The notes below the pieces were generated by a model, which saw only the letters and a list, made by a program, of their open reading frames with translations, did no database searches and had not been told where the DNA came from. Positions 4,500-60,323 of a DNA stretch of 64,000 bases are shown here, piece by piece. This DNA comes from Aotearoamyces nothofagi (taxonomy: Eukaryota > Ascomycota > Leotiomycetes > Leotiales > Tympanidaceae): positions 434,001 to 498,000 of the forward strand of contig JADDTR010000004.1 of NCBI GenBank assembly GCA_015345905.1, written 5' to 3'. The position numbers and the translations under genes are program-made. Position 1 is the first letter of the stretch. The number at the start of each line of letters is the position of its first letter.

Positions 4500-4983
4500 G
4501 AAAGAAGTTTAGGTATAGAGGCATAACCAGACGGACTGGAGACAACAAAACATCACAACACATCAAGCAGGAAGAAGACTGACGAGACAATAAAGTCGGC
4601 CAAATCAGACCTCCCGCCATCTCTCCTGCAGTAGCGCCTCACATGCAAGCGAACACGGAAAAGGCGCAGAGAGCAGAGACGCTATGCCACAAGCGGACAT
4701 AGCTGCCCGGCTTGCCCCACTTCCTGTACGGAACCGTAGTACGGACGCTCGCAGATACCAGAGACGCAGCGTCGCAACCTCTGCGGCTGGCATGTGATAG
4801 GGCCACGTGCAAAAGCCGCATTCCTGAGTGTGGCAGCCCGTGGCCAAGTCCGGTACGGGAAGTCCGGTACGGGGAGTCCAGAGCACAACGGCTTTGTGAC
4901 GGCCTGCCTTTGTCGATGTAAATGATGCCCATTGTGCGAAGATGCACCAATTAGATAGATGAGGTAGGAACCTACTCTGGGTA

Positions 4984-5050
4984 GCTGTGAGGCTGTGAGG
5001 CTGCGAGGCTGCGAGGCTGTAAGGCTGCGAGGCTGTGAGGCTGCGAGGCT
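4984..5050. repeat. 8-bp tandem repeat (GCTGYGAG)
   Basis: About eight head-to-tail copies of GCTGTGAG/GCTGCGAG, differing mainly by C/T at one position. The unit is not a multiple of three, so it is noncoding. Confidence 0.9.
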
Positions 5051-5667
5051 TTTGAACCTCCACGGCAGAGGCGCCGGCTGGGCCAATCGACAGCCCTGCC
5101 ACAGGCATGAGCAGGAGGTGTCACGTGGGTGTCATTCACTCGTCGGCTTGGCAGGCGCGCCCGGGAGAAGGGATTGGCTGGCTGATCGCCTCCTCGCGCG
5201 GGTGTGGCGGCAGGGAAGAGGGAGATTCCAATACCGAGATCTTGGCTACAAGGTATAGGGAAAGCTCTCGTCGGTAATCGACGAAGGCGCTTCCTGCATA
5301 TCATTCTGTGCAAGTAAACGCTTCTGTCTTGAATCAGAAATTCGTTGTCAATCACCGACGAAACAAAGCAATTCACAAGAGTCAAGAATTGATTGGTTCT
5401 TTGTTACATTCTAATGAATCTTGTCTAGGTTCCTGCCCGTTGTCTACTATTTAATGGCTATAAACACATTTACCAGAAATTTGAAATCCATGCTAAAAAC
5501 CACCGTCCAGAACTGACGCAAACGCAAGAAGGAAGGATGCTTGCAGGGTACAAGCTGAGATTGCGAGCGGTCAAAGGGAAAAGGGCGCGAGACCTGCTCG
5601 TTGGCTGAAGTGCACACTAAAATCGGAGCGGAGATGATTGTGAATGTAGCAGCAGAGTTACATATCC

Positions 5668-8236
5668 TCAATCGCGCTCGAGGTGTGGGGAAAGGATGCG
5701 GCTATCAAAAGGATTCTCTACGACCCCCAGAGCCTGGTCTTGGACGGCATCGTCATCATTGGCGGCGAAAAAACACTGCGCATTGATGTCGAACTCGCCT
5801 TCAGGGCTTAGGTCACCACGTGCGATCGCAAGAAATTGGAAGGGCATGAGAAACTGAGCAAAATGCCCCCTGAAGGTACCGCTGATATCGTAGATGTATG
5901 CCCCTACACCATAGAAGCCAACTGGCAGGTCAGGATGGTACCATTGCTCACCAGCAAATCTGCTGTTATAGCCACGTGCATAGATGCGCAGGTGGTGCAG
6001 TGAAAACTGGTCGGCAAACCCCTGATCAATTCCGAGAAACTGGCAAATGATCTGCTTGTACAAATACTCAAGGTTCTGAGCGCTTCCAAATTGGTCGACC
6101 GGCGTGTTTTCCTGGAGCTGTGGTTGCGCTGGTTGATAACTAGGAGCGACGGCGCTATGCAAGTATGGGTCGAGCATGTCTTCGCTGTAGAGAGCGGTGT
6201 CTATGGCAGATTCTTGGAGGTTAATGTCTTGGTCATTATGGCCTGCGCTTGAGAGTTGGAGAATGCCGGAACTACTGTTGTTGAGGAGGTCTGCAGGAAC
6301 CGGTACAGCCTCCTTATCATTGGTTGACTTGGGCACCTTTGACTGTCGTTGTGAACGTGAACGAGTGGCACGGCGACTAGAATTGTGAACAAGCCCGTCG
6401 TCTTCATCATCCTCCTCGGAATCCATCTCGCTCTCTTCAGACTCGTCTTCGTCGGCAGAGGAAGAATGACGCTTTCTGGACCTTGGCTTTTGGAGGCGAC
6501 GCTTTTTGGTCAAAGGCCTCTTAGACGGGCTGACGACCTCGAGGATTTCTTTGTCTGCGGTATCGATTCGTGTTCTCTTTTGGCCACTCTGGCTTCGAAT
6601 GGGAGGCAATGTAAACACCTTCTTTTCTTCTCGCTCACCCTCGTCAGAATCGGTATTCCATGAACCAGTCTCTTTATTGACGAGCCCCTTTTTCATAGCC
6701 TTCTGACCGGCTTTATTCTGGAGAGTTTTATTATCGTTCAACTTCTTGTTCTGCTTTTTTTGCTATAAGGACTTAAGTCAGTGATTGCAATACGACAGAA
6801 ACAAGAAATAGTGTTGTCCATACCTTCATTTCAGCCGCTGGCCGCCCAACAGCCCTATGGACAAATGAAGGGCGTAAAATCTGCTTCACAAAAGCTTTTG
6901 AGTGCTTGCAGGTGTTAGCTAGTGTCATTTGAAAGCAAATCTATTTTCTTACCTGGCATGCCCAAATGACGTTCTCCATGCGTTCAGAGAAGCTGGGATA
7001 CGGCTCGGCTTTGGATTCTTCATGAATTGTAGAAGAATCATTGCCTTCCTGAACGTCCCTAGCAGCAAGCTAAGAGAAGAAGGTCAGCAAGGCTTCGACA
7101 AGGTGATTTGGTAACCTAGCTATTGGAGGCGGGGAGATGTCGTAGATGCCTCGGAATAGTAACAGTTAGTATACTTACTATAACTTCCCAACTTGCTAGT
7201 TCAAAAGCTTTCCGAGAATACTGGCCACGAGAAAATGCTTTGGTAACTTTAGACCCGTCGAATACATCATCAAGATTCCGCATTGCGTCGAAGACCCTTT
7301 TTACCCAGAAGCGCTGCGTAGCAGCATCCAGAGGGAAATCACTAGGATTCTTCTCAGCGTTAGGTCGATGAAATTTAGCAGCTCTGAAAGATGCTTCATC
7401 CACAATAGTCAGGCCATCCATATTGTTATCATCACCAATTGATTTTGGCACAGCCTGGCGCGGTGACAACACAAATGATGAAGAGTCTAAGCCATGTACA
7501 GCGATACCTGGCTGAGACTCCATTAGGGATGTCGAGGGTTGATAGAAACCTTGCTGCTCGCCACCAGGTCCACTCCAAAGCTGGGTTCCATAAGATGCAT
7601 CGCTGAAGAGATTGGTTGGACCGGCCTGCGGTTGGTGGCCATATCCTAGACGAACCCGAGAAGACAGTGGTGGTAGAGAACCATGGCTTGGATTTGACAT
7701 TGGCTGGCCCAGCATTCCGTATTGGTTTATTCCTGCATCGTACATGTAATTGCTTGGATGATTCGACAACCCATCATTGGTACCAGTCACAATGCTGTGG
7801 GCCGTATTTTGGACGTTTATTGATGTCCAAGTCGACATCTCGTCTTCATGGGTTGGCTGGCTCCGTCTAGGAGCAGCGTCCGCACCATCTGACAAGATCT
7901 GCTATCGTAATTACTGTTAGATGTTATAAGGCAAGGAGTTGTTAGAAGACCGCTTACCAATGGCCCAGATGCCATGCCCAGACCAAGTGAATTTGGTACG
8001 GTAAAAGGAGAGACTGTTGGATCTGTACCAGTCTCCATATTGGTGGAATTGTAGTCGATCTTCCTAAAAGCCACTTGCTCCCAATACGGATCTTCTGGTT
8101 CAGGTGCGTCAAAGCTTCCCGGAAATTGGGAGCCGCTGTAGAGATGAATACTAGAGCTTGCCGGGGAGCTTAGTAGCGAACCCTGATCGAAATTGTCAGG
8201 AATATTTAAATCTGCTGACACTAAAAACTGGTCCAT
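5668..8236 (-). CDS. 764-aa conserved-looking unknown protein, probably nuclear
   Basis: Five exons reconstructed by phase: 7958-8236, 7179-7901, 6953-7069, 6824-6904 and 5668-6762. The N-terminal ~330 residues are Ser/Gly/Gln-rich and probably disordered. A compact helical region follows (WVKRVFDAMRNLDDVFDGSK, ELASWEVI, MENVIWACQHSKAFVKQIL), continued across introns into FVHRAVGRPAAEMKQKKQNK. Next come Lys/Arg-rich nuclear signals (SKRPLTKKRRLQKPRSRKRH) and an acidic run near DEDESEESEMDSEEDDEDD. The C-terminal domain has YHPDLPVGFYGVGAYIYD and FAQFLMPFQFLAIA. I do not recognise a characterised family; it resembles uncharacterised filamentous-ascomycete proteins. The 7179/7069 junction is chosen because only the CTTAG acceptor keeps the frame open. 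The exon 2 acceptor is a tandem TAGCAG (NAGNAG). Confidence 0.75.
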
Positions 8237-49141: not shown

Positions 49142-50248
49142 ATGCTGCAATTTCGTACACTCAAATACACTCTGCGAACTTCAATATTCCTGAGACGAGC
49201 CTCGTTACCGAACTTCGTCGGCTCATCGCTTATACGCACCATGGCATCGTCCGCAATGACTAAACGTCTCGAAGGCAAGACAATTGTCATTACCGGTGCC
49301 TCATCAGGCATCGGAGAGTCGACGGCATTCGAATTTGCACGAACTGCGCCAAAGAATCTAAAGCTTATTCTTACTGCCCGAAGCATTGATAAATTGAAGG
49401 AGATCGCGAAGAAGATCAATGCGGAAGTAGGAGACGGTGTCAAGATCCTGCCATTTAAGCTGGACGTTAGCAAGCCAGATGAAGTTCGTGGCTTTGTTGG
49501 CGCTCTCCCTGCAGAGTTCCAGGAGATCGACGTCCTAGTCAACAATGCGTAAGTGCCTTGCCCGGATCCATCGAGCTTTCCTGAAATATTACAGTGGCCT
49601 AGTTAAGGGTGTCGCAAGAGCGCCCGAGATCGCCGAAGACGATATAAGTGTGATGTTTGCTACAAATGTTACTGGCCTGATCAACATGACACAGGCTGTG
49701 CTTCCGGTTTTCAAGAAGCGAGCAGATGGAGGCGCAGGAGATATCATAAACATTGGCAGTATCGCTGGTAGAGATCCTTATCCAGGAGGAAGCATTTATT
49801 GCGCGACAAAGGCAGCAATCAGAAGTTTTACAGACGCACTGAGGAAGGAGTTGATTGCTACGAGAATCAGGGTTATTGAGATTGATCCTGGTCAGGTTGA
49901 GACGGTATGCTATTCACTTATGGATAGCCATGTGCCCATACTAATGAAAGGTAGAATTTCTCTGTTGTTAGATTTTATGGAGACAAGTCCAAAGCCGATG
50001 CTGTATATGCGTAAGTTTTGGGAACTCCTAGGTGTGTTCTTAAGCTAATATCGCCAGGGGTTCTGAACCATTGACCCCAGAGGACATCGCCGAGGTAATT
50101 GTATTTGCTGCTGGACGAAGGGAAAACGTTGTGATCGCGGATACTCTGATTTTCCCTCAACACCAGGTAAGCTCCTTATTCTCTTGATGGCATCAAATTC
50201 TGACTGGCCAAACAGGGCTCTGCTGGACATGTGCACAGGAAGTTATGA
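49142..50248 (+). CDS. short-chain dehydrogenase (YMR226C/YdfG-type, NADP-dependent hydroxy-acid/serine dehydrogenase)
   Basis: Five exons, 49142-49548, 49595-49904, 49955-50010, 50058-50166 and 50216-50248, give 304 aa. Rossmann motif [39 protein letters not shown] with catalytic Ser, and YCATK (Tyr-x3-Lys) are all present. The tail EFSVVRF-like [20 protein letters not shown] is the hallmark of the 3-hydroxy acid/L-allo-threonine dehydrogenase group. The first 33 residues ([20 protein letters not shown]) are Arg-rich and lack acids, like a mitochondrial signal. A second ATG at 49241 has perfect CACCATGG context and gives about 271 aa, the size of the yeast enzyme. Dual targeting by alternative starts is possible. 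Confidence 0.9.
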
Positions 50249-50737
50249 AGAGACTAGCAAGCTTTTAGGCTGGCAGGGGAAGTTACGACATATGCAAGAA
50301 GAGACTGTAAAATCGAAGAAGTAAATTAGTAGCTAGAGTAGATTGCACACAACAACACACTAAATTTATAACTACTATCCAAAAGTTAAGGATTAGCCAA
50401 CACCATATTCTAGATTTCAGGCCTGTCATACCCGTCGCCGACATTTCATGCGTGAAATGCTCCTAGAGATCTGACGATCCTCGTCGAAGCGCCGCTCCTA
50501 GCTCGTGTGCAGTAAAGTAAGCAAGTCTAAATTATTACGAACCTGGAACATTCAAGCCACATATGATGTATTGTGCTGTTTATTTTATAATTGAAATTCT
50601 TGTATTTAGTGTTGTAAAGAGGATGGATGCTACTCACTTCCCTCCGTTGTGTTGTTCCCAGTTGCTAGTCCGTGACGGCTAGTACTTTTCGTTATCGGGT
50701 GTTTATATCATAATAAGCGAAAACGCTCAAAACCAAT
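50249..50737. other. intergenic, SDR to tRNA
   Basis: 490 bp with the SDR 3' region and the 5' flank of the tRNA gene. A CCAAT lies directly before the tRNA (50733-50737). No other feature is seen. Confidence 0.45.
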
Positions 50738-50745
50738 GGTTGTAT

Positions 50746-50801
50746 GTAAGTATTAACAGACACAATTCGTTAGCTTTACAATCCACTAACCTCTATTACA
50801 G
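50746..50801 (+). other. spliceosomal-intron-like insert inside the tRNA gene (between T8 and A9)
   Basis: 56 bp begin GTAAGT, contain CCACTAACC 20 bases before the end, and finish TTACAG, the full set of fungal pre-mRNA intron signals. Removal restores GGTTGTAT-AGTGTAGCGG, matching yeast tRNA-Gln around positions 1-18. It is not at the 37/38 position cut by tRNA endonuclease. The A box (about 50802-50811) lies downstream of it, so a normal Pol III start would fall inside the insert. Confidence 0.75.
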
Positions 50802-50830
50802 AGTGTAGCGGTAAGCACGTGGGATTTTGA

Positions 50831-50884
50831 TTATTCGGCTCAGTAGACCTGAGATTGAGAATGTGGTTTCGACTGCTTTCAACT
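50831..50884 (+). other. canonical tRNA intron (after position 37)
   Basis: 54 bp lie between A37 and T38. The intron's 3' end contains TTTCAAC, whose CAA can pair with the TTG anticodon, as in precursor tRNAs cut by the splicing endonuclease. Confidence 0.8.
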
Positions 50885-50919
50885 TTCCCGAATCCCCGGT
50901 TCGAACCCGGGTACGACCT

Positions 50920-52138
50920 AAATCTTCTTTTTCTTTTTTGCTTTTTAAACTTATGGAAAGGTCATTGTTTTTTGTTTTTGTTTGGGATGCGGATGCGGAT
51001 GCGGATGAGATTTGGCCTTTTTTTTGGTGCCTAGCGGAGTGGTTGCGGTTAAGCGAGCGATGGTGACTGACTGGGAGCCTCGAGACAGCGTAGGCTTTAT
51101 CATGACAGAATCATGTAATTTTGTTTCCTATATATAACAGCACGACATGGCTGTATGTATTATATAACAATATATTATATAACAATAACAATAAAAGCAC
51201 GCGATCAACAGGCTGGTAGTGTCGATTAGTTGGCGCCCGCCTCGAGAACCTTCAGCATACAAGGGCATTCTATGCCAAGGCCCAAAGGCCGTATTCCATG
51301 TCTTCCTTCCTCCATGTATTCTCCGTATTCCGATACCGTGACGCGGAAGCAGCTGCGCCTTCCCCGTCAGCCAGACGGCTTTGCCGCTAGTCTCGAACAA
51401 GCTGCTCAAGCTGTGCCCATACTCCGACATCTCAGCCACCTTTGGCCCTCGAGGATGCCATTATGACTTACGAGTCCCGAGCATGCAGCGGCTGAACACC
51501 ACCCAAGGCACCTCCAAGGCACACCCCGCAAGCCCACAGGAGGTACAGAAGCATGTTTTTCTGCGCCTTTTCACCATAGGCCACTGAGAGCTCGCCGTGC
51601 TATCTCGTCGCTGCATCTACATGTTCTCGCAGTTAGGTACAGCCGTCGTGCTTCCGGCACCCTTTAATATGCTGCTTTGCCTCCACCACGAACCTCAACA
51701 TGTTAGAGGTCGGGCTATGCCAGGTATCGGTGCTACCGTGGCATTCTGCTTGAAATATGTCTCCCGCAACATCGGCTGCAGTGTCGAGCATCGAGTGGGT
51801 GTGACAGGCATTAGTAAGTAAGGCTAGACATGAACGTCAATTCGACTCTTTCATCAGGCTTGGGTAGTTCACTTCATCATTCCATCATTCCATCTACAAG
51901 AGGATATCTATCCGTATCATATCTTAACTCGCTTTCTTTCGTTAAAGCTCGTAGCTATCTCTATACTGCCATAAACTCCATTTTGTTGTCTCAGCCTTGC
52001 CTAGATGATCGGACCATCCCTAGAACTTATCTTCGTGATCACTCAATAGCAGCTCTGCCGTCTTTCCCCTGCACATTGAATGATTCTATCACAATTTGAT
52101 GGTTGCTTGTGATTGACGCTCTTAGTGGTGTGCTCGCA
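50920..52138. other. intergenic, tRNA to ankyrin gene
   Basis: 1.2 kb. It includes a (GGATGC)n run at 50985-51007 and an AT-rich TATATTATATAACAATA segment near 51160-51190. It probably holds the ankyrin gene's promoter and leader. A five-codon upstream ORF (ATG at 52099) precedes the main start. Confidence 0.45.
50928..50939 (+). terminator. Pol III T-run terminator
   Basis: T5 (50928-50932) and T6 (50934-50939) begin nine bases after the tRNA discriminator base. Confidence 0.8.
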
Positions 52139-58414: not shown

Positions 58415-60323
58415 TTATCCAGCAGCAAACGTAGAGCGCTTCCTCAACGTTTCACCATATTTCCAGAGCAGGAACGGCGCCGGGCATCCAAGCGCAATGG
58501 CGAGGAACGCCAACAGGCTGTTGCCCCCTGTTCGACCCGTTAGCTATGAATATATATATATATATATATATTTTCGTAATCCAGCTCGGAAAAGCATGTT
58601 GAGACTTACATCCATAGCCCAAAGCATCGTACATGTATGGGGCAAACAGTGGAAATCCAAAACCCGCCAGCGACCTCAGTACAGTAGCTGCTCCCACGGC
58701 CGACGCAGCATATCTGGTATAAGAATCAACAATATACGTTTGGATGCCCTGGAATCCTACAATCACTCCTGCCGCGAAGATGGCGGTACCAATGTTGGGC
58801 AGTATCCAGTGCGTATGCGCTTCAGCCGACCAGCCATACCAGAACAAGCCGATCGGTACCATAATGGCACCTGGAATCATGAGGGGTACACGGAATTCAG
58901 GCTTGCCGACACCATTGTTACGCTTCTTGAGAGCTCGATAGATGCGATCTTGGAGAGGAGCAGAGACCTGGGTGCCCGTGAAGAAGCCCAAGCCCAGGCT
59001 GATATAGTTTAGGCCGCCAATACCAACGGACTCGCCGTAGCGTTTCTCCCAGAGTGTCGGATAGGTGGCTAGCACGAGGTACATAAGGCCGTATAAATAG
59101 GCCATATACAGTGCCAAAACCTGGATGATCACCTGAGTGAAGAGCAACTTAAATGGACGGCTGAGAGAAATTCTTAGACTCGTCGAGAGGGTACGATCAG
59201 GACGATCAAATTCGGTATGTAAATCTTGATTTCCTGTGGATTTGATCAATGCCAGCTTCTTGCGGTGAAGAAGTACGGGCGGGTATGTCTCTTGCAGAAA
59301 GAATAGTCCCGAGAGCTGAACAACGGCGTCGCCAATAGTAGTTACCCAGAAAACCCATCTCCATGTTGTGTTTTCTGCTATAAACCCTCCTGCGATGGGG
59401 CCAACCGCCGGCCCAAGCAGAGGTGCAAGACTATAGATACTGATTGCTCGGCCACGCTCCTCGGCAGTGAAAAGATCACTGAGGACACCGCCGCCTATAG
59501 CCAGAGGTGCAGAGCCGCCAAGCCCTGCCAGGAATCGGAAGCCAATCATTTGGCCTTTGTTTGCGGCAAACCCACATCCGAGGTTAAAGAACAGATATAT
59601 CAAATTACTTATTTGGAGGACTATGACCCGCCCGTATATTTCTGAGAGCGGACCGAGGATTAGCGGGCCGATAGCATATGCCAGGACGAAGACAGACAAG
59701 GTAAGAGATAATTCAACTTCGCTCTCGATATGGAATTCTGCCGCGATTGAGGTGAGAGCTGGCGCGACCATTGACGAAGAGACTGGGGAGATGAAGGTGA
59801 AAGATGAGACTACAAGCAATTAGTAAAGCAAGCGGGTGGGCAGTGATTGATGACATATACCAACAAGCGTTGCTGCCCATTTTCTTTTAGTAGACCAATT
59901 CTTTGGATTTTCTATATCATCTGGTCCTAACCAAGTCACCAGATTTGGATCTCTAGCACTTCTGGCACTCCTCGTCGTTTTCTTTCTCTCCAGTTTTTGT
60001 AATTCTACATCATCAACGTCCCTGATATTTTGAATGCCATTTCTATTCTCGAAAACCTCGCCGCTCTCGTCTGGCTCAACATCCACTTCCTCTTCTGTGT
60101 CTTTATCGGATAAGTCTGTCTCGTCAGAATCATCGTCATCTTGTACGGGTTCTTCATGCTCATCGGGAAGGTAGTGGCCTTGATCATCAATGTAGTTTCC
60201 CGACAAGACTCGACGCAGGCTCTGAGGTGACGAGTGTCGTGATCTCGACGCGCCAGTGCGCGATGAGCGACGAGAGGCTGCACGTCTTGCAGGTGGCGTG
60301 CCGCCTACCTCTGTATTCGGCAT
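58415..60323 (-). CDS. MFS drug:H+ antiporter-type transporter (DHA1 family)
   Basis: Exons 59861-60323, 58610-59809 and 58527-58415 give 591 aa. The cytosolic N-terminus (~140 aa) is basic, then very acidic (DDDDSDETDLSDKDTEEEVD). It is followed by WLGPDDIENPKNWSTKRKW, the usual lead-in of fungal DHA1 carriers. Twelve helices include VLAYAIGPLILGPLSEIYGR (motif A), LGPAVGPIAGGFIAENTTWR (motif C) and WRWVFW. Relatives (Flr1, Tpo-type) export drugs, polyamines or metabolites at the plasma membrane. The substrate is not predictable. Intron 2 contains a (TA)11 run, yet its splice signals (GTAAGT, GCTAAC, ACAG) remain. Splicing restores the ending WGNSLLAFLAIALG...WKYGETLRKRS. Confidence 0.92.

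Follow-up and report, generated by a model that had tools for sequence, protein, structure and literature searches.

In the nuclear rDNA of ascomycetes, spliceosomal introns occur more widely than as isolated cases, and repeated gain of an intron in U6 snRNA genes is said to have been described by Canzler in 2016. The title of Rogers et al. 1993, as cited in PMC11782384, announces an mRNA intron in the 18S rDNA of deuteromycetes. Apart from U3 and U6, no small structured RNA is as yet known to be often interrupted by an intron, according to the relevant passage of PMC5832005, which also gives the rules followed by fungal U3 introns, i.e. a GTRWGT donor, an RCTRAC branch site, a YAG acceptor and a spacing of 6–36 nt. 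U6 snRNA is a product of RNA polymerase III (Pol III), and the U6 of fission yeast carries an mRNA-type intron which is spliced out, as stated in an excerpt of PMC10484740. The same excerpt relates that the U6 intron is thought to stem from reverse splicing, since it is situated near the U6 catalytic bases.

Introns of nuclear tRNA genes, removed by a different machinery, were regarded in the initial annotation of the locus treated here as known almost only between positions 37 and 38. This holds with the reservation that exceptions exist in Cyanidioschyzon and in nucleomorphs (PMC4090602), and in the section of that paper which treats them these exceptions are not presented as GT-AG introns with a branch site. 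In C. merolae, guidance of the enzyme is ascribed to bulge-helix-bulge (BHB) motifs (PMC4090602), and the 37/38 site is always processed last (PMC3978253). The tRNA introns of Guillardia are 3–24 nt in length (PMC4090602).

Among the matches listed from titles, abstract starts and passages of the open-licence literature, a body of text outside which most subscription papers fall, no spliceosomal intron was described in a tRNA gene, which is no proof of absence. As far as this literature goes, the best reading is that tRNA is a new class of host for spliceosomal introns, on the basis of the tRNA-Gln gene described below.

Anatomy of the tRNA-Gln locus

The window, i.e. the whole stretch of DNA that was analysed, is 64 kb long with a G+C content of 47.9% and contains 0 N. 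Its gene content is, in our reading, of filamentous-ascomycete type. A tRNA-Gln(UUG) gene is located on the plus strand at 50738–50919, and is complete only after two segments of 54 nt and 56 nt have been taken out. The two-segment cloverleaf had been proposed in the initial annotation, and ARAGORN recovered it at the same positions.

The anatomy can be observed directly, and all of the following features are on the plus strand. Exon 1 (50738–50745, GGTTGTAT) contains bases 1–8, i.e. the 5′ acceptor strand and T8, and is followed by the 56-nt insert (50746–50801), which lies between T8 and A9. Exon 2 (50802–50830), beginning AGTGTAGC and supported by ARAGORN as well as by a covariance model match described below, comprises bases 9–37 with the D arm, the 5′ anticodon stem and the anticodon TTG. 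It is separated by an ordinary 54-nt tRNA intron at 37/38 (50831–50884, called as an intron by ARAGORN) from exon 3 (50885–50919), also placed by ARAGORN, which extends from base 38 to the discriminator T73 and carries the T arm, the 3′ acceptor strand and a stretch, GTTCGAACC, that fits the box B consensus. A run of the Pol III terminator type, TTTTTCTTTTTT (50928–50939), begins 9 nt past the end of the tRNA, its role as a terminator being putative. The edges of the 37/38 intron may slide by up to two Ts with the product unchanged, whereas the 8/9 junction is fixed without any sliding, since the flanking bases differ. The spliced tRNA resembles the tRNA-Gln of yeast.

The acceptor strand GGTTGTA pairs with TACGACC (50912–50918) in 7 of 7 positions, one of which is a G-U pair, so that the full acceptor pairing previously claimed for the locus was upheld. 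Equally good pairing with TACGACC was found for seven of the 63,994 7-mers of the plus strand, and in only one of these seven, the copy at the locus, do T and then GT come next. The D stem pairs in 4 of 4 positions, and all four arms are paired in the cloverleaf drawn by ARAGORN after intron removal; decay of the stems or of the anticodon arm, by which a tRNA pseudogene would be recognised, was not seen in these arms.

When run over the whole window, ARAGORN returned no tRNA, either with the bacterial code or with the standard code and introns of up to 300 nt. Of four versions of the locus, both without the insert were called as tRNA-Gln(ttg) and both with the insert gave none. With the insert out and the 37/38 intron kept, the call included a 54-nt intron, and with both introns out it was a 72-nt tRNA-Gln(ttg) with anticodon and cloverleaf intact. 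Rfam searches of the whole window at gathering score likewise gave no match. A relaxed cmscan search of the unedited region 50301–51500 produced a match to the tRNA model RF00005 at 50802–50911, spanning model positions 9–63, with 23.6 bits and an E-value of 0.035, i.e. below the gathering score of 29. As this match starts at model position 9 with base 50802, the 3′ edge of the insert is fixed independently.

Deletion of each of 65 looser intron-like candidates in the window, followed by ARAGORN, yielded one tRNA, which was the tRNA-Gln locus, and the simulated counterpart yielded 0 tRNAs from 551 candidates in 20 simulated sequences. Such tRNA-free controls are to be expected, since a tRNA body is absent both from the 64 remaining candidates of the window and from the simulated sequences. 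The blank result of ARAGORN at the locus and the sub-threshold score of the Rfam tRNA model point to a possible blind spot, and in passages of PMC8450103 the search of tRNAscan-SE 2.0 for noncanonical introns is described for the archaeal model. As tRNA genes of this kind are outside the scope of tRNA finders, more of them may sit unseen in eukaryotic genomes.

Two further sequence features were noted downstream. The motif GGATGC is present in about four head-to-tail copies at 50985–51007, just downstream of the T-run, and GGTGCCTAGCGGAGTGGTTGCGG at 51026–51056, ca. 107 bp past tRNA-Gln, is a box A-like stretch similar to a tRNA 5′ half. No tRNA was reported at 51026–51056 by the relaxed Rfam search.

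Searches with a pattern of the split tRNA-Gln gave 0 matches in genome contigs and viral contigs, and as these collections are of prokaryotic or viral origin, misses in them say little. The pattern of the unsplit tRNA-Gln had 0 matches in the prokaryotic genome contigs and matched one viral contig (L001, IMG/VR). As a relative of tRNA-Gln this match was rejected, being an unrelated tRNA-Asp. Positions 4811–6677 of the viral contig contain seven tRNA genes, including a tRNA-Gln(ttg) and the tRNA-Asp whose 5′ part fits the eukaryote-type tRNA-Gln pattern.

Splice signals of the 8/9 insert

A U2-type spliceosomal intron is the reading that suits the insert best. The insert has GT-AG ends with a donor of the GTRWGT type (GTAAGT…CAG), a branch site of the form RCTRAY within 6–36 nt before the acceptor (ACTAAC, at 11 nt), and signals and length like those of the host, its 56 nt lying within the 44–84 nt of 11 host introns. 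That the stretch 50746–50801 runs from GTAAGT to TTACAG between T8 and A9 had been claimed before, and agrees with both the sequence and the start of the cmscan match at 50802. The earlier placing of CTAAC 20 bases before the insert end was in error: the predicted branch site (50786–50790) begins 16 nt before the end, and 11 nt follow the motif. No other AG stands between the branch site and the 3′ junction to A9, and the insert conforms to the fungal U3-intron rules of PMC5832005.

As a yardstick for host-like signals, 11 introns were picked by hand from protein genes of the window; they are not a random sample, and comprise four introns of a short-chain dehydrogenase (SDR) gene and seven judged by continuity of ORF or protein. 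From the 16 candidates of a second intron finder six were used, two of them with altered ends, and ten were left out; the other five introns were identified by eye, on the strength of an uninterrupted ORF or protein and with known family sequences as a guide. A first intron finder based on a coding score (12 candidates) was dropped, because its candidates were mostly in-frame pieces of long exons. The SDR gene (49241–50248) contains four introns of 46–50 nt as read by protein continuity, and its spliced protein matches PF00106 with an E-value of 4.3e-52 over residues 13–208. For SDR intron 1, the branch picked by the script is not a consensus site. In an intron of an MFS-type transporter gene on the minus strand (58528–58609, 82 nt), donor and branch site are separated by a long run of TA.

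When donor, branch and acceptor matrices were summed, the insert scored 21.9 with the matrix from all 11 host introns, and the host introns, for each of which the matrix was built from the ten others, scored from 12.7 to 20.9. The insert ties with the best host intron and beats the other ten, since the MFS intron (20.9) has identical letters at the scored positions. The usual exon letters at a donor are AG, and the exonic donor flank of the insert, TAT, differs from them, which is counted against a spliceosomal reading. An introner-like copy of the insert was not present elsewhere in the window, the best other blastn match being 12 nt long (E-value 0.14).

Strict sites composed of suitably spaced GTAAGT, CTAAC and YAG were found at four places of the window (six nested matches, two strands), and in 30 simulations a 64-kb strand had a mean of 0.4 such sites, the highest number being 5. 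Looser intron-like sites numbered 30 and 35 on the two strands versus 34.1 in simulation, i.e. without enrichment. The weight of the case lies in the coincidence of place, as a segment with strong splice signals adjoins precisely T8 on one side and A9 on the other, in a tRNA whose cloverleaf is intact after its removal, and this observation is real and beyond chance.

The anatomy and signals, taken together, argue for a nuclear tRNA-Gln(UUG) gene with a U2-type spliceosomal intron at 8/9 in addition to the usual 37/38 intron, of which the 8/9 insert would be removed first. We regard this reading as likely.

Probable transcription, in silico folding and proposed order of intron removal

Transcription is probably by Pol III, which is favoured by the box B match and the T-run. 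With T8 split off in the DNA, box A agrees with the consensus at 10 rather than at all 11 positions, and its start lies 63 bp, not 7 bp, downstream of G1. With box A displaced in this way by 56 bp, the Pol III start would be expected inside the insert if it were set by box A alone. In some fungi an upstream TATA element can set the Pol III start, according to PMC3978253, and a TATA-like stretch, TTTATATCATAA, is located 25–36 nt upstream of G1. This stretch was set aside as the start-setter, since 50% of 639 pieces of the window match the TATA consensus equally well. The polymerase is the weakest step of the spliceosomal-intron reading. Removal by the spliceosome had initially been taken to imply a Pol II precursor, a requirement that falls away, since U6 is a Pol III transcript and is spliced in fission yeast, as the excerpt of PMC10484740 states, and since the tRNA-Gln gene ends in a T-run of the Pol III type. 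For splicing of a Pol III RNA by the spliceosome, fission yeast U6 is the precedent.

Mean pairing probabilities calculated in silico for the transcript with both introns were 0.00 for the D arm, 0.18 for the anticodon arm and 0.97 for the acceptor. With only the 37/38 intron present the values were 0.47, 0.51 and 0.98, respectively, and with only the insert present, 0.00 for the D arm and 0.70 for the anticodon arm; the acceptor value was 0.97–0.98 across all versions. One hundred shuffled inserts gave a median of 0.02 for the D arm (10–90% range 0.00–0.68), 0.01 for the anticodon arm and 0.98 for the acceptor. Disruption of the D arm is thus indicative of an effect of insert size with no special design, as shuffled inserts mostly do likewise. 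In comparison with shuffled sequences, neither the precursor (z −0.96, 33 of 200 shuffles folding as well) nor the insert (z −0.76) was unusually structured.

The eukaryotic tRNA endonuclease is held, in the parts of PMC4090602 and PMC3978253 that treat it, to measure from the tRNA body. As the D arm is unpaired in the presence of the insert, the insert would be the first to leave, an order that parallels C. merolae, in which the 37/38 site goes last (PMC3978253). In the pathway that we infer from the sequence, with respect to transcription and polymerase, the actual splicing, the order of steps and the function of the product, Pol III would transcribe the gene, and the spliceosome would excise the 56-nt insert as a lariat in the usual way and join T8 to A9. 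Loss of the insert would allow the D arm and the tRNA body to fold, the tRNA endonuclease, measuring from this body, would then cut out the 37/38 intron, and RNase P and RNase Z would trim the ends. We lean towards a living tRNA gene that depends on two machineries, the spliceosome for the intron at 8/9 and, for that at 37/38, the tRNA endonuclease together with the ligase, where the first step is the precondition for the second.

If the insert is spliced, one RNA of 72 nt would be processed by two splicing systems that are unrelated to each other, probably one after the other, and the supply of this tRNA would be tied to the spliceosome. Splicing would also suggest that a Pol III precursor whose first exon is very short is within reach of the spliceosome. 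For the gain of the intron, the argument from position made for U6 is not transferable to a tRNA.

Alternative explanations and comparison with known systems

The main rival is a dead tRNA gene, i.e. that one of several Gln-TTG copies acquired an intron, reverse splicing and DNA repair being examples of how, and has ceased to be expressed as a tRNA. Box A shifted away from the start and the T8 lost from it are in keeping with such a copy, and odd insertions in eukaryotic tRNA genes are mostly found in one of many synonymous genes and are supposed to mark pseudogenes, according to the passage in PMC4090602. Against this stand the stems, box B and the T-run, which are without any sign of decay, an argument that a very recent insertion would escape. 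A random insert is moreover not expected to match the best of 11 host introns, although an inserted intron copy would escape this argument in turn. On balance, we consider a dead copy unlikely, while still granting it some weight. Alternatively, splicing might be confined to a noncoding transcript or to one that arises by Pol II read-through, and would then not give a working tRNA. The SDR gene on the same strand ends ca. 490 bp upstream (stop codon near 50248), and its 3′ UTR, if long, could span the locus. An unrelated transcript would however have no need for a junction exactly between tRNA positions T8 and A9 that restores the full cloverleaf, nor does a T-run after the tRNA fit well with it, and read-through is accordingly judged improbable.

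An unusual endonuclease site had also been proposed for the insert, a suggestion that gained no support from the BHB test. A strict BHB was not found at the 8/9 junctions, where, depending on the orientation, 1 or 2 of the 4 pairs form in the central helix, and 0–2 of 3 in the flanking helices. The 37/38 intron does not pass this strict test either, with 0 or 2 of 4 pairs in the central helix, for which reason a relaxed site at 8/9 may still exist, and introns outside 37/38 do occur in some eukaryotes, as PMC4090602 reports in the part concerned. An ectopic tRNA intron of the Cyanidioschyzon or nucleomorph kind, cut by the tRNA splicing endonuclease, would nevertheless have to live with these poor helices at 8/9 and leave the GT, branch and AG signals unexplained, and is in our view highly improbable. 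Even less credence is given to chance or artefact, i.e. an accidental resemblance to an intron or a wrong assembly. With 0.4 and up to 5 strict sites per simulated strand, one such site somewhere is not rare, but it would have to start exactly after the T8 of a fitting acceptor strand, of which the seven 7-mers mentioned above are the only source, and an assembly error is not expected to make splice signals.

The spliceosomal-intron reading brings the locus closest to fungal U6 snRNA and U3 snoRNA genes, which likewise contain a GT-AG intron with a branch site inside a small structured RNA gene (PMC5832005; for U6 as a Pol III product, PMC10484740, both in the passages concerned). The host here differs from these in being a tRNA, and in having a second intron for another machine. 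Canonical nuclear tRNA genes, whose 37/38 intron is handled by the Sen endonuclease and the Trl1 ligase, are matched by the 54-nt intron at 37/38, whereas the 8/9 insert lies outside the anticodon loop and is without a strict BHB. In the occurrence of an extra intron outside 37/38 within one tRNA gene, the locus is similar to the ectopic introns of Cyanidioschyzon merolae and nucleomorphs, and it differs from them in that the insert is a GT-AG segment with a predicted branch site, theirs not being so described in the relevant passages of PMC4090602. The spliceosomal introns in nuclear rRNA of ascomycetes are comparable as mRNA-type introns in a structural RNA gene that is not transcribed by Pol II. 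The rRNA case involves Pol I and long exons, in contrast to an exon 1 of 8 nt plus leader in the tRNA-Gln gene. If the reading is true, tRNA would join rRNA, U3 and U6 as hosts of spliceosomal introns.
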